DNA from: Streptomyces sp. NBC_00670
GTDB lineage: Bacteria; Actinomycetota; Actinomycetes; Streptomycetales; Streptomycetaceae
Length of the DNA: 64,000 bases
Assembly: GCF_036226765.1 (NCBI RefSeq)
Contig: NZ_CP109017.1
Location: forward strand, 186,001 to 250,000
Direction of reading: 5' to 3'
Shown here in pieces: positions 53,015 through 63,284 of the stretch (positions are counted from its first letter, which is position 1; every line of letters begins with the position of its first letter). A program made the position numbers and the translations under genes. The notes beneath the pieces are model-generated. The model had not been told where the DNA came from. It saw nothing but the letters and a program-made list of their open reading frames with translations, and searched no databases.

Positions 53015-53533
53015 TCACCGCCGCGTGGCGTCACCCTCCTGTCCCAGCGCGTAGAGGTGCGGGAGGTTGACCACGATCGCCTCCTGGGTGCTGCGGGCGA
53101 TGACGACCACGGCTTCCTCCGTGGGGTCGGGGTTCTCCTCGCGGTGCGGGACGAACGGCGGGACGAAGATGTAGTCCCCGGGCGCGGTGCGCAGCCGCAC
53201 CTCTTCCGGCCGCGGGCCGGAGTCGTCGACGAAGACGAACTCGGGGTGACCGCTGACGATGTGGATGGCGGTCTCGGACTCGCCGTGATGGTGATCGGAG
53301 GAGGAGGTCGAGGGGGCGACATGGGTCTGGCCCATCCACAGCTTCTCGGAGCCGACCGTCTTCCCGCTGATGGCGGCGAACCTGCGCATGCCCGAGGTCT
53401 GGGCGGTCCCGCCGTCGAGGGCGTCGGCGCGGACGTGGTGAAGTCGCGTGCGCAGGGGGGCCGGTGGCTCTCCCGCCGCGTCACCGAGGTGGGGGTGGAA
53501 ACCTTCGCCGGGGGTGGTCAACGGCTCGCTCAT
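53015..53533 (-). CDS. Cupin-domain protein
   Basis: 172 aa, single small beta-barrel. The metal motif DHHHGESETAIHIVSGHPEF gives the cupin 1 block with His ligands; GDYIFVPPFVPHREENP gives cupin 2 with a further His. Such proteins are dioxygenases, isomerases or sensors; which one is not clear. ATG 53533 is divergent from the Rrf2 gene; the shared gap of 138 bp holds an operator-like site. Confidence 0.88.
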   Translation of the reverse strand: MSEPLTTPGEGFHPHLGDAAGEPPAPLRTRLHHVRADALDGGTAQTSGMRRFAAISGKTVGSEKLWMGQTHVAPSTSSSDHHHGESETAIHIVSGHPEFVFVDDSGPRPEEVRLRTAPGDYIFVPPFVPHREENPDPTEEAVVVIARSTQEAIVVNLPHLYALGQEGDATRR

Positions 53534-53561
53534 GGCTTGGACGCTAGGGCTGTCCGAAAAA

Positions 53562-53578
53562 GGATGTCAAGAGGTGTC
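53562..53578. promoter_or_regulatory. Rrf2-type operator candidate, regulator copy
   Basis: GGATGTCAAGAGGTGTC; on the other strand GACACCTCTTGACATCC. It matches 12 of 17 positions of GACACCTTTTAGTGTCC at 55154-55170, in the promoter of the ABC locus. Located between cupin and Rrf2 genes, so it could serve both. Confidence 0.55.
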
Positions 53579-53671
53579 CATTACGTTTCACCTGCGGCAA
53601 TGTTCCCGCAATAAAGCAGTGGAGGCCTCAGTAGCCCCCGTGCCGGCCGCCTCGTCGGGCATCATGAGCGC

Positions 53672-54100
53672 ATGCATATCTCCGCGAAGGCGGACTACGC
53701 CACGCGGGCCCTGCTGGAGCTCGCCCGCGAACCTTCCCGCCCCCTGACGTGCGAGGCCATCGCCTCCTCGCAGCAGATCCCGTTCCGCTTCCTGAAGTCC
53801 GTCGTGGGCGAGTTGCGCAGGGCCGGTCTGGTCCGCAGCCAGCGCGGCTGCGAGGGCGGGTACTGGCTCGGCCGGCCCGCCGGCGACATCACGCTCCTCG
53901 ACGTCACGCACGCCGTGGACGGGGAGTTGCTCACCCTCCGGGGCGAGCCGCTGACCGGGCTCGACTACCCGGGACCCGCCGCCGGGCTGCCCGGGGTGTG
54001 GCGCCGGATCGAGGACGAGGCCGCCGCCCTGCTGCGCGCCACGACGCTCACCTCGCTGCTGCCCGAAAGCGGCGGCGCCACCGAGAAGGGAGCCGCATGA
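53672..54100 (+). CDS. Rrf2-family transcriptional regulator (CymR-like)
   Basis: 142 aa. N-terminal winged helix: MHISAKADYATRALLELARE, LTCEAIASSQQIPFRFLKSV, then GCEGGYWLGRPAGDITLLDV, which is the Rrf2 wing. Only one Cys lies in the region where iron-sulfur Rrf2 proteins (IscR, NsrR) carry three, so it is unlikely to hold a cluster and is more like CymR, the cysteine-metabolism regulator. The downstream sulfur-type ABC locus and the leader peptide agree with this. ATG 53672; coupled to the DsbA-like gene by ATGA. Confidence 0.88.
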   Translation: MHISAKADYATRALLELAREPSRPLTCEAIASSQQIPFRFLKSVVGELRRAGLVRSQRGCEGGYWLGRPAGDITLLDVTHAVDGELLTLRGEPLTGLDYPGPAAGLPGVWRRIEDEAAALLRATTLTSLLPESGGATEKGAA

Positions 54101-55110
54101 CCGAAGCGGCGGGCCGCGCACCGGCCGAGGGGAGGGGCCGCGCGCCGGCCGAGGGCGCGGGCCGTACACCGGCCGATGCGGTGAGCCGTACGACACCGGC
54201 CGAGACGGTCGAAGTCGTCGAGTACACCGACCCGTTGTGTCCGTGGGCCTGGGGTTCGGAGCCCGTGCTGCGCAGGCTGCGCGCGGCACTCGACGGCCGG
54301 GTCCGCTGGCGTCGCGTGTACTGCATCCTGTTCGACCACGACGACGACCCCGCCCCCGACCCGGCCGCGGAGACCCGCTGGTACGCGCGCTACGTCGAGG
54401 ACATCGCCCGGCACACCCACGCGCCCCGGCCGTTCCGGCTGCGCCGGGTGGCGGCGAGCTCCTGGCCCGCCTCGCTCGTCGCCAAGGCGGCCGAGGCGCA
54501 GGGCCACGAGGTCGCCGACCGGGTGCTGCGGCGGCTGCGCGAGACCGTCTTCGTCCTCGGCGAGCCCGCCGACTCCCCCGCCCTGGCCCTCGCGGCGGTG
54601 CGGGGCGTGCCGGGCCTGGACCCGGAGCGGCTCGCCGCCGACGCGGCCTCCGACGCCGTACGGGACGGGGTGCGCGCCGACCACGCGGAGGCCCGCCGGC
54701 CGGTACCCCAGGTACTGTCCGCCGACGGCGGCTCCCCGCACCCCGGCGCCGCCAAGGAGACCCCGGACGGCGGGCACCGCTACGCGCTGCCCACACTGCT
54801 CGTCCGTTCCGCGGGCACCCTGCGAGCGGTGCCCGGTTGGCGGCCGTACGAGGAGTACGCCCGCGCCGTCGAGGCAGTGCGGCCGGGGCTCCCGGCGGAC
54901 CCCGCGCCCCTGCCGGCCGAAGCCGCCCTCGCCCGGTACCGCAGTCTGACCGGACCGGAGCGCGCGCTGCTGACGAGCGGGGCGTGGCCGCCTGCGGGGG
55001 CCGTGCGGATCGACACCGCCGGGGGACCGCTGTGGCTCCATCCGGACGAGGCGGCGACCCACCAGGCCACCCACCCGGCCACCCGCCCCGCTCCCCCGCC
55101 GGGCCCCTGA
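54097..55110 (+). CDS. DsbA-family (FrnE-like) thioredoxin-fold protein
   Basis: 337 aa. An N-terminal low-complexity stretch repeats GRAPAEG-type units (about 6-29). The thioredoxin-fold domain begins VEVVEYTDPLCPWAWGSEPV; the active-site position reads CPWA, so the second Cys of CxxC is missing and it is not a normal oxidase. A cis-Pro block ALPTLLVRS appears near residue 230. A C-terminal part of about 80 residues is unassigned. Translationally coupled to the Rrf2 gene (ATGA). It may be a thiol-dependent isomerase or chaperone; function unclear. Confidence 0.8.
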   Translation: MTEAAGRAPAEGRGRAPAEGAGRTPADAVSRTTPAETVEVVEYTDPLCPWAWGSEPVLRRLRAALDGRVRWRRVYCILFDHDDDPAPDPAAETRWYARYVEDIARHTHAPRPFRLRRVAASSWPASLVAKAAEAQGHEVADRVLRRLRETVFVLGEPADSPALALAAVRGVPGLDPERLAADAASDAVRDGVRADHAEARRPVPQVLSADGGSPHPGAAKETPDGGHRYALPTLLVRSAGTLRAVPGWRPYEEYARAVEAVRPGLPADPAPLPAEAALARYRSLTGPERALLTSGAWPPAGAVRIDTAGGPLWLHPDEAATHQATHPATRPAPPPGP

Positions 55111-55153
55111 CCAGCCTGTCGGCCCCCGGCGGCGGCCCGTCCCGCCCAATGAG

Positions 55154-55170
55154 ACACCTTTTAGTGTCCA
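55154..55170. promoter_or_regulatory. Rrf2-type operator candidate before the leader peptide
   Basis: GACACCTTTTAGTGTCC has GACAC/GTGTC arms around six bases and lies 38 bp before the leader ATG. The same pattern is found upstream of the Rrf2 gene (53562-53578), so that regulator is the likely binder. Confidence 0.6.
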
Positions 55171-55207
55171 TTGACAGCCGGTCACGGCTCACCGCAGGAT
55201 GAGCACC

Positions 55208-55282
55208 ATGCTTACGACGCACCCCGGTGTGGTGTGCCGCTACGTGGACCTGCGGCGCACCTGTAGCGCCCTCTGTCGCTGA
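55208..55282 (+). CDS. 24-aa Cys-containing leader peptide
   Basis: MLTTHPGVVCRYVDLRRTCS then ALCR; an in-frame ATG three codons upstream (55199) is an alternative start. The form R-x-V-D-L-x-R-x-x-S-A-L-C matches a family of actinobacterial short leaders found before sulfur and oligopeptide ABC operons. The three Cys codons suggest ribosome stalling when cysteine is scarce, changing folding of the downstream leader RNA and so expression of the transporter. It is too short for ordinary gene finders. AGGATGAG upstream could serve as ribosome site. Confidence 0.75.
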   Translation: MLTTHPGVVCRYVDLRRTCSALCR

Positions 55283-55597
55283 CCGCCCGCCGCCCACGGC
55301 TCCCCGGCGCCCGCCACTCCCCCCGCCGGCACCGGCCTTCGCGCCGCTCCGCCGCACGGCGCCCGTTCTCGAACACCGTGTCCCCGGCCCGGCCGTTCTC
55401 CTCGTTCTCCCCGTCCGCCGGCTCCCGCCCGCGTGACGTCAACCTCCTCATGCCCTGAGCGCTTCCGAGTGCCCCCTCGGTGCGGTGTGCCCCCGTGCGC
55501 ACCACACCCACCGGGCATGCCCCGCCCTGCCCGCCCCGGCGTACGACGACGCCGCCGTGGCGCGCTGCGGCCCGCGCCCCCGAAAAAGGATTCCGCG
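55283..55597 (+). promoter_or_regulatory. Leader RNA between leader peptide and ABC operon, possible attenuator
   Basis: 315 bp without a credible gene. It holds competing stems: GGTGCG (55479-55484) with CGCACC (55498-55503), and GGTGTG (55484-55489) with CACACC (55503-55508), which share bases and cannot form together; also ATGCCC (55450-55455) with GGGCAT (55513-55518). GC-rich DNA gives many such pairs, so this is weak evidence. The ribosome site AAAAAGGA for the binding-protein gene is at 55583-55590. Confidence 0.4.
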
Positions 55598-57169
55598 ATG
55601 TTCGCACGCCTCGCACACCTCACCCGCCGCGGTCCCGGCCCGCGCCCCACCCGACGGAACCGGGTGCGCGCCGCCGCCCTGGGCACCGTCCTCGTCACCG
55701 TGGCCACTCCTGCCCTGAGCGCCTGCGGCGGCGACACCGCCGCCGCGAGCGGTACGGCCACGCTGAAGTGGGCTTCCTCCTACTTCCCCGCCCACTGGGA
55801 CCCGGTGGTCGGCGGCAGTGGCGCCCAGTTCCGCGAACTGGCCCTGGTCTACGCCTCGTTGACCCGCACCGACGAGAAGGGCAACGCCGTCCCCGACCTG
55901 GCCAAGAGCTGGAAGTACAACGCCAGGGGCGACGAGATCACCTTCCATCTGCGGCCCGGGCTGACATTCAGCGACGGCGAACCGGTGAACGGCGCCGCCG
56001 TGAAGGCCGCCGTCGAACGCGCCAAGAAGCAGAAGAACTCCGCGCTCTTCGGCGACCTGACGTCCATCACGTCGGTGGACGCGAAGGGACTCGACGCGGT
56101 CATCCATCTCAGTCAGGTCGACTACCAGATCCCGCAGTTGCTCGGCGAGCGCGTGCTGCAGATCGCCAGCCCCAAGGCGGCGAAGAACGCGAGCGCGCTG
56201 GATCAGAAGCCGGTCGGCGCGGGCCCGTTCGTCGTCACGCAGATCGTCCCGGGCACCAAGGCGGTGCTGAAGAAGAACCCCGACTACTGGGACGCGAAGA
56301 ACATCCACATCGACAACGTCGAACTCACCTCCGCGCCCGACGTCTCCACCGTCGTCTCCGGGCTGCGGACCGGCGTCTACAACTTCGCCGACATCGACCC
56401 CAGTCAGGCGGGGGCCGCCAAGAAGGCCGGACTCGACGTCTTCGTGCAGCCGGGCTTCAACGCCTCCAACATCAGCCTGAACGTCAACAAGGCGCCGTTC
56501 ACCAACGACAAGGTCGTCGACGCCGTCCGGTACGCGATCAACCGCGAGGAGTTCGTCGACAAGCTGACCTTCGGCTACGGCGAGGCCACCGACCAGCCCT
56601 TCCCGAAGGGCTACGTCGCCTACGACCCGGCGTCGGCCGACGCCTACCCCTACGACCCGGCGAAGTCCAGGAAGCTGCTCGCCGAGGCCGGTTACCAGGC
56701 CGGTGACATCAAGCTCAACCTGGTCATCCCGGCCGAGGACCCGCAGGCGGAGATCGTCCAGTCGCAGCTCGCCAAGGTCGGCATCAAGGTCACCATCAAG
56801 ATCGACAAAAACTGGGCGACGCCGTTCTTCGCCAAGGACCTGACGTTCTCGCTGTACGGGACGACCGGCCGCGACTCGGCGTTGCAGACGCTCACCGCCC
56901 ACTTCGGCCCCGACGGTCCGCTCAACCTCAGTTCCCCCTACGAGCCGGCCGGCTTCGAGGCGGCCGCGGCCAAGGTGCGCGAGACGCCGCTGAACTCGCC
57001 GGACTACGCCGAGGTGCTGCGCGCGGCGACCCGGGCCGGGCTGGAGAGCAAGGCGCTGGTCTTCACCTACTCCCAGCCCAACCTCATCGCCAAGAGCACT
57101 GCCGTCTCCGACCTGCCGAAGAACCCGGCCCACATCGACTGGACCGGCGTGACCATCGGCGGCAACTGA
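55598..57169 (+). CDS. Family 5 solute-binding lipoprotein of a sulfur/peptide-type ABC importer
   Basis: 523 aa. Arg-rich N-terminus, hydrophobic stretch and lipobox ALSAC (about 39-43). The mature protein is SBP family 5 (DppA/OppA class): ITFHLRPGLTFSDGEPVNGA and VVDAVRYAINREEFVDKL are typical blocks. Likely ligand is a small organosulfur compound or a modified peptide, inferred from the linked flavin monooxygenases and Cys leader. ATG 55598 has a clear AAAGGA site. First structural gene of an operon that runs to the right edge. Confidence 0.9.
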   Translation: MFARLAHLTRRGPGPRPTRRNRVRAAALGTVLVTVATPALSACGGDTAAASGTATLKWASSYFPAHWDPVVGGSGAQFRELALVYASLTRTDEKGNAVPDLAKSWKYNARGDEITFHLRPGLTFSDGEPVNGAAVKAAVERAKKQKNSALFGDLTSITSVDAKGLDAVIHLSQVDYQIPQLLGERVLQIASPKAAKNASALDQKPVGAGPFVVTQIVPGTKAVLKKNPDYWDAKNIHIDNVELTSAPDVSTVVSGLRTGVYNFADIDPSQAGAAKKAGLDVFVQPGFNASNISLNVNKAPFTNDKVVDAVRYAINREEFVDKLTFGYGEATDQPFPKGYVAYDPASADAYPYDPAKSRKLLAEAGYQAGDIKLNLVIPAEDPQAEIVQSQLAKVGIKVTIKIDKNWATPFFAKDLTFSLYGTTGRDSALQTLTAHFGPDGPLNLSSPYEPAGFEAAAAKVRETPLNSPDYAEVLRAATRAGLESKALVFTYSQPNLIAKSTAVSDLPKNPAHIDWTGVTIGGN

Positions 57170-57203: not shown

Positions 57204-58232
57204 ATGACGGCGACAGCGTCACCGTCCCCGCCCACCGGCCGTCGTACGGCCGCCGCGGCCCGGGCGCGGCACGCCCTGGGCCGCGTCCTGGCCACCGTCG
57301 CCCGGTCGGTCGCGATCTTCGTGCCCGTCTTCCTGGTCGCGACCTTCGTGACGTTCGCGCTGCGCTCGCTCAGCGGGCTCAGCCCGGCGCGCATCCAGCT
57401 GGGCGAGGAGGCCACGCCCGAGGCGATCGCCCGGGTCGAGTCCCAGTGGGGCCTCGACCGCCCGTTCCTGGTGCAGTACGGCGACTGGATCGGCGGCGTG
57501 CTGCACGGCCGGCTCGGCGCGAGCTGGACCAACGGCGCCGACATCTCCACCCTCATCGGACTCGGCCTCGGCGTCAGCCTGTCGGTGGCCACGTTCGCCC
57601 TGCTCATCGGCGTCGTCGCGGGCTTCGCCCTGGGCACGCTCGCGGCGCTGCGCCGCACCACCTGGATCGACCGCGCGGTCACCGGCTTCGTCACGGTGAT
57701 CTCCGTGATGCCGGCCTTCGTGGTCGGGATCGTCCTGGTGGCGGTCTTCGCGGTCGGTCTCGGGCTGTTCCCCTCCGCCGGGTACGTCGAGCCGGAGCAG
57801 GGCATCGGCCCGTGGCTCGCCCACATCACGCTGCCCGCCGTCGCCCTGAGCTTCGACGTCGTCGCCGACGTGGCCCGCCAGCTGCGCACCAGTCTCATCG
57901 CGGCCTACCGCGAGAACTACGTGACCGGCGCGCTGGTGCGGGGGCTGAGTCCGCGCCGGATCTTCTTCACCCATGTCCTGCGCAACGGTCTCGGCCCGGC
58001 GCTGGCGACGCTGGGCCTGAAGTTCCCCTCGCTCGTGGGTGCCTCCGTCGTCACGGAGTGGATCTTCGGTCTCCAGGGGTTCGGCCGGTTCGCCAACGAC
58101 TCCGCGCAGGCCGGTGACGTGCCCGCCGTCCAGGGGGTGCTGGTCGTGTCGATCGTGCTCGTCGTGGCGTTCAACCTCGTCGTCAACCTGGTGCTGGCGC
58201 GTGTGACGCCGGCCTCGCAGAGGGGGGTGTGA
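57204..58232 (+). CDS. ABC importer permease (DppB type)
   Basis: 342 aa, six helices. WGLDRPFLVQYGDWIGGVLHG and the EAA loop YRENYVTGALVRGLSPRRIF are the family landmarks; the N-terminal 30 residues are a basic tail. AGAGGAGG precedes the ATG. Inner-membrane half of the importer. Confidence 0.92.
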   Translation: MTATASPSPPTGRRTAAAARARHALGRVLATVARSVAIFVPVFLVATFVTFALRSLSGLSPARIQLGEEATPEAIARVESQWGLDRPFLVQYGDWIGGVLHGRLGASWTNGADISTLIGLGLGVSLSVATFALLIGVVAGFALGTLAALRRTTWIDRAVTGFVTVISVMPAFVVGIVLVAVFAVGLGLFPSAGYVEPEQGIGPWLAHITLPAVALSFDVVADVARQLRTSLIAAYRENYVTGALVRGLSPRRIFFTHVLRNGLGPALATLGLKFPSLVGASVVTEWIFGLQGFGRFANDSAQAGDVPAVQGVLVVSIVLVVAFNLVVNLVLARVTPASQRGV

Positions 58233-58235
58233 GCC

Positions 58236-59126
58236 GTGGTGCGCCGTGTGCTCTCCCTGCCGTCCGGCCGTATCGCCGTCGCCGTGCTCGCGGTGATCGC
58301 CCTGCTCGCGGTGTTCGGCCCGCTGCTCGCCCCGCAGGACCCGCTGGCCGCGGGCGACCACACCCTGGCCCCCGCGTCCGCCGCCCACTGGCTGGGCACC
58401 GACTATCTGGGCCGGGACGTGCTGAGCCGGTTGCTCCACGGCTCCCGGGTCAGCGTGCTGGGCTCGCTGGAGGTGGCGCTGACCGCGCTCGTGGTCGGGG
58501 TGGTTCCCGGGATCCTGTCGGTGTATCTCGGCCGGACCTTCGAGTGGATCACCCTGCGGCTGGCCGACACCCTGGTCGCCCTGCCCTTCCTGCTGTTCGC
58601 GGTCGCCGTCGTCGCCCTGCTCGGCAACGGCATCACCCAGGCGATGCTGGTGACCGGGGCGCTGGTCTCGCCGTTGTTCTACCGGGTCTCCCGCGCCGCC
58701 ACGCTGGCGGTGGCCCGCTCGCCGTACGTCGAGGCCGCGCTCATCGCCGGTGCCGGCGTCGGCCGGGTCGTCCGCCGGCACGTCTGGGCCAAGGTGCTGC
58801 CGCCGATCGCGGTGGCGCTCGCGCAGACCATCGGCGTCGGCTTCGTGATCGTCTCGAGCCTGACGTTCCTCGGCATCGGTGTGCAGCCGCCCGCACCCAC
58901 CTGGGGCGGACTGCTCGCCTCCGACCTGGGCTATCTCAGCCAGCGGCCGTGGGCGCCGCTCGCCCCCGCACTCCTGATCATGGTCACCGTCTGGGCCTGC
59001 AACGTCCTCGCCGACGCCCTGCGGGACGTCTCCGGCGAGGCCGGGCGCGCGCTGCTCCTCAGCCGCCGGGCTCGCGCGCACCGGTTCGACGGGGCCGACC
59101 CCGCTCCCGCCGGAGGCGCACGATGA
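58236..59126 (+). CDS. ABC importer permease (DppC type)
   Basis: 296 aa. AHWLGTDYLGRDVLSRLLHG is the DppC signature and YVEAALIAGAGVGRVVRRHV the EAA loop. GTG 58236 lies three bases after the preceding stop; an overlapping GTG at 58229 is in another frame. Pairs with the product of 57204-58232. Confidence 0.92.
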   Translation: MVRRVLSLPSGRIAVAVLAVIALLAVFGPLLAPQDPLAAGDHTLAPASAAHWLGTDYLGRDVLSRLLHGSRVSVLGSLEVALTALVVGVVPGILSVYLGRTFEWITLRLADTLVALPFLLFAVAVVALLGNGITQAMLVTGALVSPLFYRVSRAATLAVARSPYVEAALIAGAGVGRVVRRHVWAKVLPPIAVALAQTIGVGFVIVSSLTFLGIGVQPPAPTWGGLLASDLGYLSQRPWAPLAPALLIMVTVWACNVLADALRDVSGEAGRALLLSRRARAHRFDGADPAPAGGAR

Positions 59127-60010
59127 GCACCCTGTCCCAGAACCCGCGCGCCGGCCGCCGCGCCCCGGCACGGTCCGGTCCCACGATGCCGGCAACGGCT
59201 CCCGCGCTGTCCGTGCGGGATGTGCGCATCAGCGACCGGGCCGGCGGCCGCGAGATCGTCCACGGGGTGAGTTTCACCCTCGCCCCCGGCCGGACGGTCG
59301 GCATCGTCGGCGAGTCCGGCAGCGGCAAGACCCTCACCTGCCGGGCCACGCTGGGCATCCTGCCCCCGCACTTCGAGATCACCGGCGGCTCGGTCGAGAT
59401 CGAGGGCCGCGACATCGGCGGACTGACGCCCGGCGAGTGGACGGCCCTGCGGGGCAGCACGATCAGCGCCGTCTTCCAGGACCCCTCCTCCTACCTCAAC
59501 CCCTCGATCCCCGTCGGCAGACAGGTCGCCGAGGTGATCCGGGTCAAAAAGGGCGCGGGGCGGCGCGAGGCCCGGCACCGGGCACTGGAACTGCTGCGGG
59601 CCGTGCACCTGCGGGAGCCCGAACTGGTCTACTCCCAGTACGCGTTCGAGCTCTCCGGCGGCATGCTGCAGCGGGTCCTCATCGCGGCGGCCGTCGCCGC
59701 CGGCCCGCGCATCCTGATCGCCGACGAGGCCACCACCGCGCTCGACGTCACCGTCCAGGCGGAGATCCTCGACCTGCTGGCTGATCTGCGCGCGGACACC
59801 GGCCTCGCTCTCGTGGTGGTCTCCCACGACCTCGCCGTCGTCGCCCAGCTGTGCGACGAGGTGCTCGTCATGCGGCAGGGCGAGGTGGTCGAGCAGGGGC
59901 CCACCGAGGAGGTGCTGCACCGTCCGCGCCACGCGTACACCCGGCTGCTGATCGCCGAGCACCAGCAGTACGGCCTGGAGAAGTTCCTCACCACCGAGGA
60001 GGACGCATGA
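59123..60010 (+). CDS. ABC importer ATPase (DppD type)
   Basis: 295 aa. GESGSGKTL (Walker A), LSGGMLQRVLIA (signature with Met in place of the usual Gln), ILIADEATTALD (Walker B), VSHDL (switch). About 30 N-terminal residues precede the core. ATG overlaps the permease stop. No sign of the C-terminal Cys cluster that holds an iron-sulfur centre in some DppD proteins. Confidence 0.92.
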   Translation: MSTLSQNPRAGRRAPARSGPTMPATAPALSVRDVRISDRAGGREIVHGVSFTLAPGRTVGIVGESGSGKTLTCRATLGILPPHFEITGGSVEIEGRDIGGLTPGEWTALRGSTISAVFQDPSSYLNPSIPVGRQVAEVIRVKKGAGRREARHRALELLRAVHLREPELVYSQYAFELSGGMLQRVLIAAAVAAGPRILIADEATTALDVTVQAEILDLLADLRADTGLALVVVSHDLAVVAQLCDEVLVMRQGEVVEQGPTEEVLHRPRHAYTRLLIAEHQQYGLEKFLTTEEDA

Positions 60011-60852
60011 GCGGCGACACCACACCTCCGGCCGGGCCGGTCCTCGAGATCGAGGGACTTCAGGTGCACTACGGGCCGCGCCGCCGGCGCCGACGTGCCC
60101 TGCACGGCGTCTCGTTGAGCGTCGCCCCGGGCGAGACCGTCGGCCTCATCGGCGAGACCGGCTCGGGCAAGTCCACCCTCGCACGGGCCGCCCTCGGCCT
60201 CGTCCGCGCCTCGGCCGGGACCCTCACCGTCGACGGCGAGGACGTCACCTCGTACGGCACCCGCCAGTGGCGCGCCCTGCGCCGCCGGGGCGTGATCCAG
60301 TACGTCTTCCAGGACCCGCTGCGCAGTCTCGACCCGGACCTGAGCATCGAGGACTCCCTCACCGAGCCGCTGCTCATCGGCGGCGCGGGCCGCGAGGAGG
60401 CGGCGGCCCGGGTGCGTGCCTTCCTGCCCCGCGTCCACCTCGACGAGGAGCTCCTCGTCCGGCTGCCGGGCGAACTGTCCGGCGGACAGCGCCAGCGGGT
60501 CGCGGTGGCCCGCGCCCTGGTCACCGGGCCGCGGCTGGTCATCCTCGACGAGCCGGTCAGCGCGCTGGACTCGGCCAATCGCGTCCAGGTCCTGCGGATC
60601 CTCGAGGAACTGCGCGCCGACGGCGTGGCCCTGGTGTTCATCTCCCACGACCTGGGCTCCGTCGCCGGCGTCGCCGACCGCGTCGCGGTGCTGTACCGGG
60701 GCGAGCTGGTCGAGACGGGCCCCACCCGGGACGTCGTAGGCGCCCCGCGACACCCCTACACGCGGCTGCTCCTCGGCTCCGCGCCCACCCTGCACGACGC
60801 ACCGGCGGACCGCGCCGAACGCGACGCCCTGCGCGCGCTGTTGCACGCCTGA
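60007..60852 (+). CDS. ABC importer ATPase (DppF type)
   Basis: 281 aa. GETGSGKST, YVFQDPLRSLDPDLSIEDSL, LSGGQRQRVAVARAL, LVILDEPVSALD and ISHDL form a complete ABC domain of the DppF/OppF class. Coupled to the first ATPase gene by ATGA. Completes a five-part importer. Confidence 0.93.
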   Translation: MSGDTTPPAGPVLEIEGLQVHYGPRRRRRRALHGVSLSVAPGETVGLIGETGSGKSTLARAALGLVRASAGTLTVDGEDVTSYGTRQWRALRRRGVIQYVFQDPLRSLDPDLSIEDSLTEPLLIGGAGREEAAARVRAFLPRVHLDEELLVRLPGELSGGQRQRVAVARALVTGPRLVILDEPVSALDSANRVQVLRILEELRADGVALVFISHDLGSVAGVADRVAVLYRGELVETGPTRDVVGAPRHPYTRLLLGSAPTLHDAPADRAERDALRALLHA

Positions 60853-60876: not shown

Positions 60877-62217
60877 ATGCCCCGCACCCTCCACCTCGCC
60901 CTCCACCCCTACGGCGTCGGCGGCCCCGGCCAGCACGGCCTGTGGAAGGACCCGCGCGTCGCGAAGAACGCCAGCATCGACATCGACTACTACATCCGGC
61001 AGGCCCAGGCGGCCGAACACGCCCTGTTCGACGCCCTGTTCATCGTCGACAGCCAGTTCATCAACGCGACCTACCCCGCGCACTACCTCAACCGCCTCGA
61101 ACCGCTGACGCTGCTGTCGGCGGTGGCCACCCACACCCGGCACATCGGCCTGGTGGGCACGGCGAGTTCGACGTACAACTCGCCGTTCAACCTCGCCCGC
61201 CGGTTCGCCTCCCTGGACCACATCAGCGGCGGCCGGGCCGGCTGGAACGTGGTGACCAGCTTCGACACCGGCACCTCCCGCAACTTCGGCCTCGACGAAC
61301 ACCTCGACTACGCCACCCGCTACGGCCGCGCCCTGGAGTTCGTCAAGGTCGCCCGGGGGCTGTGGGACTCCTACGAGGACGACGCCTTCCCCGCCGACGT
61401 CGAGCGGGGCGTGTTCCTGGACCCGGACAAGCTGCACGAACTGAACCACGTGGGCGAGCACTTCTCGGTGGCCGGGCCGCTGAACCTGTCCCGTTCCCCG
61501 CAGGGCCAGCCGGTGATCTTCCAGGCCGGGGTCTCCGAGGAGGGCCGCGACCTGGCCGCCCAGGTCGCCGAGGGCATCTACGCGCCCGGCGGAACCCTGG
61601 AGCAGGCGCGGGAGTACTACGCCGACATCAAGAGGCGCACCGCCGCCTACGGCCGGGACCCCGACCACATCAAGATCTTCATTCACGGCAGTCCGGTCGT
61701 CGCCGCCACCGACGAGGCCGCCCGGCGCCGCGAGCGGGAGATCTTCGAGGAGGACAACGACTTCGCACGCAACCTCGCGCTGCTCGGCCGCTCCTTCGGG
61801 GCCTACGACTTCAGCGTGCACGACCTGGACGCGCCCTTCCCGGACGTCGCCCACCTGGCCGAGAAGGGCGGCCGCACGGGAGCCGCGAAGCTCATCGAGC
61901 GGGCCCGGACGGAGAACCTGACGCTGCGTCAGGTCACGGAGTCGGTCAACCAGTTCCGGAAGTCGCCGTTCGTCGGGGACCCGCGCACCGTCGCCGACGC
62001 CATCGAGCGGTGGTTCGACGCCGGCACCTTCGACGGCATCAACCTCGCCTTCCGCACCGAGGAGGAACTGAACCTCTTCGTCGACGGCGTGGTCCCGCTG
62101 CTGCAGAAGCGCGGCCTGTTCCGCACCGAGTACACCGCCGACACCCTGCGCGGCAACCTCGGCCTGCCCGTCCCCGCCAACCGGCACAGCCGCGCGCACG
62201 CGGTCGCGGCCCGCTGA
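60877..62217 (+). CDS. NtaA/SnaA/DszA-family flavin-dependent monooxygenase
   Basis: 446 aa, luciferase-like TIM barrel using reduced FMN from a partner reductase. HPYGVGGPGQHGLWKDPRVA, DALFIVDSQFINATYPAHYL, THTRHIGLVGTASSTY and GGRAGWNVVTSFDTGTSRNF are the group landmarks. Relatives oxidise nitrilotriacetate, sulfones, alkyl sulfides or N-acyl cysteine derivatives; Bacillus homologs in CymR-controlled operons help recover sulfur. That parallel, the Cys leader and the ABC importer suggest S- or C-S bond oxidation here. No FMN reductase is visible in the window. Confidence 0.88.
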   Translation: MPRTLHLALHPYGVGGPGQHGLWKDPRVAKNASIDIDYYIRQAQAAEHALFDALFIVDSQFINATYPAHYLNRLEPLTLLSAVATHTRHIGLVGTASSTYNSPFNLARRFASLDHISGGRAGWNVVTSFDTGTSRNFGLDEHLDYATRYGRALEFVKVARGLWDSYEDDAFPADVERGVFLDPDKLHELNHVGEHFSVAGPLNLSRSPQGQPVIFQAGVSEEGRDLAAQVAEGIYAPGGTLEQAREYYADIKRRTAAYGRDPDHIKIFIHGSPVVAATDEAARRREREIFEEDNDFARNLALLGRSFGAYDFSVHDLDAPFPDVAHLAEKGGRTGAAKLIERARTENLTLRQVTESVNQFRKSPFVGDPRTVADAIERWFDAGTFDGINLAFRTEEELNLFVDGVVPLLQKRGLFRTEYTADTLRGNLGLPVPANRHSRAHAVAAR

Positions 62218-62249
62218 GGTCCGGCCTTCCGCAGGAGAGAGGCACGCCC

Positions 62250-63284
62250 ATGACCAGTGACAGACCCCGTTTCCGGCTCGGCTTCCTCACCCATGTCCAG
62301 GGCCGGGACGACGACTTCGCCCGCACCTACCGCAACGCGCAGGAACTGTTCACCGCCGCCGACGAACTCGGCTTCGACATCGGCTGGGTGGCGCAGCACC
62401 ATGTCGCCCTCCACGGCGGCGGGCTGTCCTCGCCGTGGACCTTCCTCGCCCACGCGGCCGCCCGCACCTCCCGCATCCGGCTCGGCACCGCGATCACCGT
62501 CCTCCCGCTGGAGGACCCGCTCCGGCTCGCCGAGGACGTCGCCACCGTCGACACCCTCAGCGGCGGCCGGGTGGAGATCGGGGTGGGCAGCGGGTCCAGC
62601 GCCGTCGAGTACGCGGCCTTCGGCCGGGACGTCGCCCGCAAACGCGAACTGACCAGCGACCACCTGGACATCCTGCGCCGGGCCCTGGCGGGCCAGGAGG
62701 TCGGCACGCCCGGGTTCCGCATCCAGCCGCCGCCCGGCGACTTCGAGGGGCGGATCTGGCAGGGCGTGTTCAGCGCCGAGGGCGCCGGGCACGCGGCCGC
62801 GGGCGGCTCCCAACTGCTGCTGAACCGGGCGGCCTACGGCTTCGACGCCCCCACCGACGAGGTGCAGCGGCCCTGGGCCGACGCCTACCTCGCGGCCTGG
62901 GACCGGCCGGCCCGCCCCCGCATCGGCCTGTCCCGCTTCGTCTTCCCGGCCAAGGACCGGCGCACCGCGCTGCGCCACATCGGCGAGGACGTCCACCGGG
63001 CGGCGCTGCGCATGGCCGAGTCCGGCGCGTTCCCCAAGGGGCTGTCCGCCGAGGAGGCGCTGCGGCGCTTCCACGCCTTCCATGGCCATCCCGAGGAGAT
63101 CGTCGCGGCGCTGCGGCAGGAGAAGGTGCTGCCCGTCGCGACGGATCTGATCGCCCAGTTCAACCCCGCCGTCGTCGACCACGACGCGGCCGTGCGCGCC
63201 CTGGAACTCATCGCCACCGAGGTGGCGCCCGCCCTGGGCTGGGCGCCCGCGCACACCGCCGATCCCGCACCCGCAGGAGTCTGA
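62250..63284 (+). CDS. LLM-class flavin-dependent oxidoreductase
   Basis: 344 aa, second luciferase-like protein in the operon, about 100 residues shorter than the neighbour and of the bacterial luciferase alpha-like group: FDIGWVAQHHVALHGGGLSS, RIRLGTAITVLPLEDPLRLA and GGRVEIGVGSGSS. Preceded by AGGAGAGAGG. It may act on the product of the first monooxygenase or on a different imported compound. Confidence 0.87.
   Translation: MTSDRPRFRLGFLTHVQGRDDDFARTYRNAQELFTAADELGFDIGWVAQHHVALHGGGLSSPWTFLAHAAARTSRIRLGTAITVLPLEDPLRLAEDVATVDTLSGGRVEIGVGSGSSAVEYAAFGRDVARKRELTSDHLDILRRALAGQEVGTPGFRIQPPPGDFEGRIWQGVFSAEGAGHAAAGGSQLLLNRAAYGFDAPTDEVQRPWADAYLAAWDRPARPRIGLSRFVFPAKDRRTALRHIGEDVHRAALRMAESGAFPKGLSAEEALRRFHAFHGHPEEIVAALRQEKVLPVATDLIAQFNPAVVDHDAAVRALELIATEVAPALGWAPAHTADPAPAGV

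Follow-up and report, generated by a model that had tools for sequence, protein, structure and literature searches.

The 64,000-nt stretch of Streptomyces sp. NBC_00670 analysed here (contig NZ_CP109017.1; referred to below as the window) carries at 55208-55282 a short open reading frame that encodes a true leader peptide of the cysteine type, divergent but related to a known actinobacterial kind, and that very probably acts in cis as a cysteine-linked element. Cysteine-responsive stalling of the ribosome at a UGU codon, with Rho-dependent rather than intrinsic termination as the effector, is the best fit for its mode of action, and the chances of this reading are judged to be about even. Cysteine-responsive leader control is supported indirectly, by the likeness of the peptide to cysteine leader families, its conservation, the sulfur and cysteine genes behind sister leaders and the sulfur-type operon downstream. 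To this extent the proposal of a first-pass annotation, that the operon is under cysteine-responsive attenuation, stands, whereas the classical stems and terminator that it implied were not found. The probable leaderless start, the near-invariant UGU codon, the hairpin within the ORF and the palindrome/Rrf2 layer described below were not part of that annotation.

Leader peptide features and conservation

55208-55282, + strand: leader peptide ORF MLTTHPGVVCRYVDLRRTCSALCR, from ORF reading and conservation
55274-55276, + strand: codon 23, UGU (Cys), proposed sensing codon, UGU in 41/41 distinct ORFs

The ORF starts with an ATG at 55208 and comprises 24 codons followed by a TGA that ends at 55282. 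Cys codons occupy positions 10, 19 and 23, and the peptide is an exact match to the form R-x-V-D-L-x-R-x-x-S-A-L-C; codon count, Cys codons and motif had all been read in this way by the first-pass annotation, as had the 315 nt between the stop at 55282 and the start of the substrate-binding protein (SBP) gene at 55598. The start was placed at 55208 and not at the in-frame ATG at 55199 because in 15/59 aligned leaders the 10 codons upstream contain no in-frame ATG.

Relatives of the SBP were collected and the best 80 of 223 encoding stretches were kept, which yielded 59 leaders including that of the window. A near-invariant peptide, MLTTHPGVVCRYVDLRRT[C/S]SALCR, was found with a peptide regular expression before the orthologous operon at 58/80 of these loci (best 80 of 223), and beyond these matches a leader with one extra codon is present at L069 and a partial copy, whose frame continues past the site of the missing usual stop, at a contig edge in L072. 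This recurrence before the orthologous SBP gene is far above chance, and the ORF is real. One of the 58 leaders (L108) is frameshifted and was excluded from the codon table, the duplex scan and the spacer, blocked-fold and leader-conservation sets, and the leader call was left out for L088, L102 and L105, where the sequence ends near the gene, and for L120, where the upstream sequence is masked. The 16 loci without a leader among the best 80 of 223 all lie outside the Streptomycetaceae (Amycolatopsis, Actinokineospora, Frankia, Janibacter, Actinoplanes and Hamadaea). Cys10 and Cys23 are invariant in all 41 distinct intact leader ORFs; the middle Cys is not conserved, 20 of them having Cys and 21 having Ser at residue 19.

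The Janibacter locus L129 carries a different short ORF, ending in CLCCCR and lying about 220-310 nt before the SBP match of the same operon; it looks unrelated and may be a cysteine leader that arose or was replaced independently.

Leader families, sister leaders and downstream operon

Against the family NF042934 (cis_reg_atten, "putative leader peptide") the 24-aa form of the window peptide scored 15.9 bits (E 0.0077), below the cut-off of 27, and its Ser19 relatives scored 23.2 bits (E 3.9e-5); against NF042936 (leader_Ms4527A) the window peptide scored 17.3 bits (E 0.0026), below the cut-off of 45 bits. The core RxVDLxRxxSxxC closing in a UGU Cys codon, which is our own description of NF042934 and not that of NCBI, is present in the window leader, which shares with the family this core motif and the place before sulfur-type genes and differs from it in the N-terminus MLTTHPGVVC, found only before this operon. 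Matches to NF042934 over the cut-off were obtained in 96/148 sampled Actinomycetes genomes and, at that E-value, in 0/14 control genomes.

Elsewhere in the genome (7.58 Mb, single contig) four sister leaders exceed the NF042934 cut-off, and the genes behind them encode a cysteine dioxygenase (L001), a ThiS-family protein followed by a PALP protein (L002), a sulfite reductase (L003) and a rhodanese (L004). The ThiS-family and PALP pair we take to be cysO-cysM. L001, the sister leader whose downstream cysteine dioxygenase gene was identified with Pfam, has the variant MDLVRYAGCVC, and the same peptide type occurs in L210, L213, L214, L216, L217 and L218. Induction by cysteine shortage would be odd for a cysteine-consuming enzyme, and the output of L001 may therefore be reversed.

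The operon behind the window leader consists of:

55598-57169, + strand: family-5 substrate-binding protein, first gene of the operon (PF00496, 1.2e-70)
57204-58232, + strand: permease 1 (PF00528)
58236-59126, + strand: permease 2 (PF00528)
59123-60010, + strand: ABC ATPase 1, start approximate (PF00005)
59950-60852, + strand: ABC ATPase 2, start approximate (PF00005)
60877-62217, + strand: NtaA/DmoA-family FMN monooxygenase (TIGR03860, 6.6e-149, above cut-off)
62211-63284, + strand: luciferase-like monooxygenase, LLM_KPN_01858-like, start approximate (TIGR04027, 1.7e-83, below its cut-off)

From these protein families we infer that the operon serves sulfur use. An Rfam scan of 53500-56000 returned no match at E up to 1. 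A literature search covering mainly open-access papers found none that names these motifs or this leader.

Constraint on the UGU codon

The Cys that closes the core motif is encoded by UGU in 143/144 family leaders, comprising 114/114 first-pass leaders and 29/30 in a held-out set of lower-scoring leaders fetched afterwards; the profile search was made at the protein level, and so introduced no bias towards UGU. Of the 114 first-pass leaders 112 were parsed, and with the mis-parsed L243 excluded 111 were used in the later family statistics; L242, L243 and L253 were checked separately and all have UGU. The normal Cys codon is UGC: the 80 SBP genes (best 80 of 223) contain 71 UGC codons, with TGT in 0/71, and the remaining Cys positions within the family leader ORFs are mostly UGC. 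Since neighbouring third positions vary among the family leaders despite their common descent, the constraint falls on the UGU codon itself. It lies close to the end of the ORF, with 0-4 codons between UGU and stop in 100/111 leaders. The sole exception of the 144 is L281, which uses TGC at this position and carries TGT at another place in the ORF.

Spacer RNA and proposed mode of action

55283-55597, + strand: spacer rich in C and poor in G (52% and 28% in the window), where Rho is proposed to load
55586-55590, + strand: weak Shine-Dalgarno (SD) sequence AAGGA, upstream of the SBP gene

The orthologous spacers average 49% C and 29% G, with C exceeding G in 57/57, and are 210-571 nt long (57 sequences) with little conservation except in the first bases and the stretch just before the gene. 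Throughout the family the excess of C over G is 0.155 in the 120 nt after the stop versus -0.009 upstream, and it is higher after the stop in 101/110 leaders (Wilcoxon p 8e-18; 110 of the 111 leaders were paired, one being without enough flank); among the held-out leaders C exceeds G after the stop in 28/30. Base composition speaks to Rho loading only indirectly, and it counts as support and not as proof because ortholog loci without a leader also have more C than G upstream of the gene, more weakly. No terminator-like site was found on the + strand between leader and gene, and a run of five T occurs in 0/57 spacers. The RNA 55208-55597 has a folding z of -1.48, with 7/100 shuffles folding at least as well. 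Mutually exclusive stems, which the first-pass annotation had placed in the spacer, were not recovered; the spacer folds little better than its shuffles and has neither a U-tract nor a conserved structure. Rho is favoured as the effector because the spacer is C-rich and G-poor and contains no intrinsic terminator or conserved fold.

When Cys-tRNA is ample, the ribosome would complete the leader ORF and depart, and Rho would then load on the exposed C-rich RNA, so that transcription would end short of the transporter/monooxygenase operon. With Cys-tRNA in short supply, the ribosome would stall with UGU codon 23 in its A site and cover the start of the C-rich RNA, so that the operon would be transcribed. 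Initiation may be set by a repressor that binds the palindrome, for which the linked Rrf2 protein is the probable candidate. A stalled ribosome shields only about 15 nt beyond the A site, which counts against this model because the whole C-rich stretch is longer than the covered part; the sister leader before a cysteine dioxygenase gene and the score of the window peptide, under both family cut-offs, also count against it.

Stalling at the Cys codons could instead act on translation, the leader RNA folding so as to cover the first gene's ribosome-binding site until the stalled ribosome opens it, with transcription reading through in both states; this alternative is considered unlikely. Canestrari and colleagues reportedly found in 2020 that mycobacterial polycysteine leaders act by translation attenuation. 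The mycobacterial relatives are so described in PMC13236596, and the SD sequences of the SBP genes are weak, with some of them complementary to the invariant CTCTGT leader end (e.g., CACAGAGAG in L090). The best duplex with the leader end, however, lies inside the SD window in 3/57 sequences only, and complementarity to the leader end downstream is barely above that of swapped probes (0.036 vs 0.006 at k=7, about 4/111). In blocked-fold simulations of 52/57 sequences (those longer than 520 nt were left out), stalling lifted SD accessibility by 0.029 versus 0.014 for control blocks and beat the control in 28/52, and the SD of the window is predicted to be 0.74 unpaired already, such folding predictions being rough on GC-rich RNA of this length. 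As a general feature, masking of the SD by the leader end found no general support in the duplex scan, the swapped-probe complement test or the blocked folding.

Probable selection on the peptide

Family-wide, the residues R, V, D and L are kept while their codons change, including CGN/AGG and CTN/TTG exchanges, a pattern that points to selection on the peptide. Conservation of the peptide extends past the Cys residues, and synonymous variation of the Arg and Leu codons in the wider family reaches even the first positions; both would suit a leader encoding a small trans-acting protein, or a nascent chain that senses a metabolite other than Cys-tRNA shortage. This explanation is nevertheless held to be decidedly improbable: the checked sister leaders sit before cysteine or sulfur genes, and a near-invariant synonymous codon points to action in cis. 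Stalling at UGU with Rho-dependent termination would leave room for an effect of the nascent chain.

A bolder and rather doubtful reading is that actinobacterial cysteine leaders are arrest peptides and do more than count Cys codons. The nascent RxVDLxRxxSxL would lie in the upper exit tunnel as the fixed UGU enters the A site, the ribosome would be unusually prone to stall there when too little Cys-tRNA, or too little of its correctly modified form, is available, and the stalled ribosome would keep Rho off the C-rich RNA behind the stop; UGU would be part of the sensor through its weaker G-U wobble decoding. In TnaC of E. coli, which senses free tryptophan through the nascent chain, Rho is kept from the adjacent RNA by a ribosome that is held close to the stop of the leader. 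TnaC serves only as a works-like analogy, with no membership claimed, and differs from the window leader, for which Cys-tRNA shortage at a codon is proposed. If true, the arrest-peptide reading would make these leaders a class-wide TnaC-like device tuned to sulfur.

Promoter, probable leaderless start and palindrome

53672-54100, + strand: Rrf2-family regulator gene (TIGR00738, E 6e-30; Pfam Rrf2, 2.6e-30)
54103-55110, + strand: DsbA/Thioredoxin_5-like gene, start codon uncertain (Pfam PF13743, 3.5e-12; PF01323, 6e-8), in synteny with the Rrf2 gene
55153-55168, no strand assigned: palindrome GACACC-N4-GGTGTC, operator-like and immediately 5' of the -35 box, with one mismatch in the window copy
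55171-55176, + strand: -35 box TTGACA
55195-55200, + strand: -10 box CAGGAT, 7 nt before the leader ATG

The spacing between the two promoter boxes is 18 bp in 56/59 loci and 17 bp in 2/59, and the gap from the -10 hexamer to the ATG is 7 nt in 46/59 and 6 nt in 12/59, L077 being unassigned in both cases. Because the conserved promoter ends 6-7 nt before the leader ATG (58/59), the mRNA is probably leaderless, with the leader ORF probably as its first cistron. Family-wide, TANNNT occurs shortly 5' of an in-frame start in 69/111 leaders versus 12/2210 control starts.

Across 60 loci the palindrome is exact in 51, has one mismatch in 8 (including the window) and three mismatches in 1. The Rrf2 gene is present in 56/58 leader loci with enough upstream sequence versus 0/16 non-Streptomycetaceae loci without a leader, a linkage that is confounded with lineage. 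It is also present at L120, where the upstream sequence was masked for the leader call, and L096 has kept the leader and the palindrome with no Rrf2 gene nearby. The palindrome and the linked regulator suggest a second layer of control, in which the Rrf2 protein may bind the palindrome. The Rrf2 regulator, the DsbA-like gene and the promoter palindrome co-occur with the leader across Streptomycetaceae loci.

A scheme in which the palindrome and a repressor, for example the linked Rrf2 protein, do most of the regulating and the leader is a minor element would account for a site with at most one mismatch in 59/60 loci and for the linkage of the Rrf2 gene, but it leaves the conservation of the ORF, the UGU codon and the family-wide pattern unexplained; given also the lineage confounding and L096, it is thought very unlikely.

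As a genome-wide regulon marker the palindrome was rejected, with 18 sites at up to one mismatch versus 21 for a reversed-pattern control; the site closest to, but outside, the window (L144) looks intragenic when read by eye.

Hairpin within the leader ORF

55232-55260, + strand: in-ORF hairpin, arms 55232-55240 and 55252-55260, with the VDL codons in or beside the loop

The 9-bp hairpin is more stable than synonymous recodings of the ORF (rank 0.004 over 1000 in the window; mean z -2.5 over 41 ORFs). Covariation amounts to one C-G pair changed to A-U through two synonymous changes in 2/41 sequences and is slim, a control slid by +3 scoring 0.037 versus 0.026 for the true hairpin among the SBP leaders. 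Comparison with recoded ORFs thus supports a predicted hairpin within the leader ORF. Also very improbable is classical transcription attenuation by competing terminator and antiterminator hairpins in the 315-nt spacer, as the first-pass annotation had it, for which trp leaders known in Streptomyces (PMC1262725) and the conserved hairpin inside the ORF may be cited, and against which stand the lack of a + strand terminator-like site or T5 run, the unconserved sequence and length of the spacer and the weak folding z.

As a family-wide RNA motif the in-ORF hairpin was rejected, the shift being only moderate (mean z -0.58 to -1.17, with about 9-32/111 at rank <0.05, depending on the codon range).

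Comparison with known cysteine leaders

Mycobacterial polycysteine leaderless short ORFs (Ms4527A, Ms5788A; NF042936, NF042933; Shell 2015, Canestrari 2020; PMC4633059) resemble the window leader in being short and probably leaderless with Cys codons near the end. They also come first in a sulfur/cysteine operon and have a related R-x-V-D-L-x-R core. The window leader differs in having no Cys run, its Cys codons being isolated at 10, 19 and 23 with two of them conserved, and also in the palindrome beside its promoter, its different operon and its lack of predicted masking of the ribosome-binding site.

Candidate cys leaders without an obvious terminator were reported from Mycobacterium, Propionibacterium and Bifidobacterium (Seliverstov 2005), and Rho was weakly proposed for the mycobacterial ones, as set out in PMC1262725. 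Cys codons near the stop and the absence of an obvious terminator are shared with the window leader, and the operon and motif differ; the first part of that text does not describe cys leaders of Streptomyces.

If stalling at UGU with Rho-dependent termination is right, ribosome-directed cysteine sensing would extend from mycobacteria to an organosulfur-scavenging operon of Streptomyces, and a testable rule for actinobacterial cysteine leaders would be one near-invariant UGU with C-rich RNA after the stop. It would also bear on the terminator-free candidate cys leaders of 2005, for which PMC1262725 offers only the weak Rho proposal.

The metNIQ leader of S. lividans, MSTTSDRTPATEATTTPGARCMCRRMCAF, is labelled methionine-dependent in PMC8079986 (Table 4), but with three Cys close to its C-terminus it could belong to the cysteine leaders.
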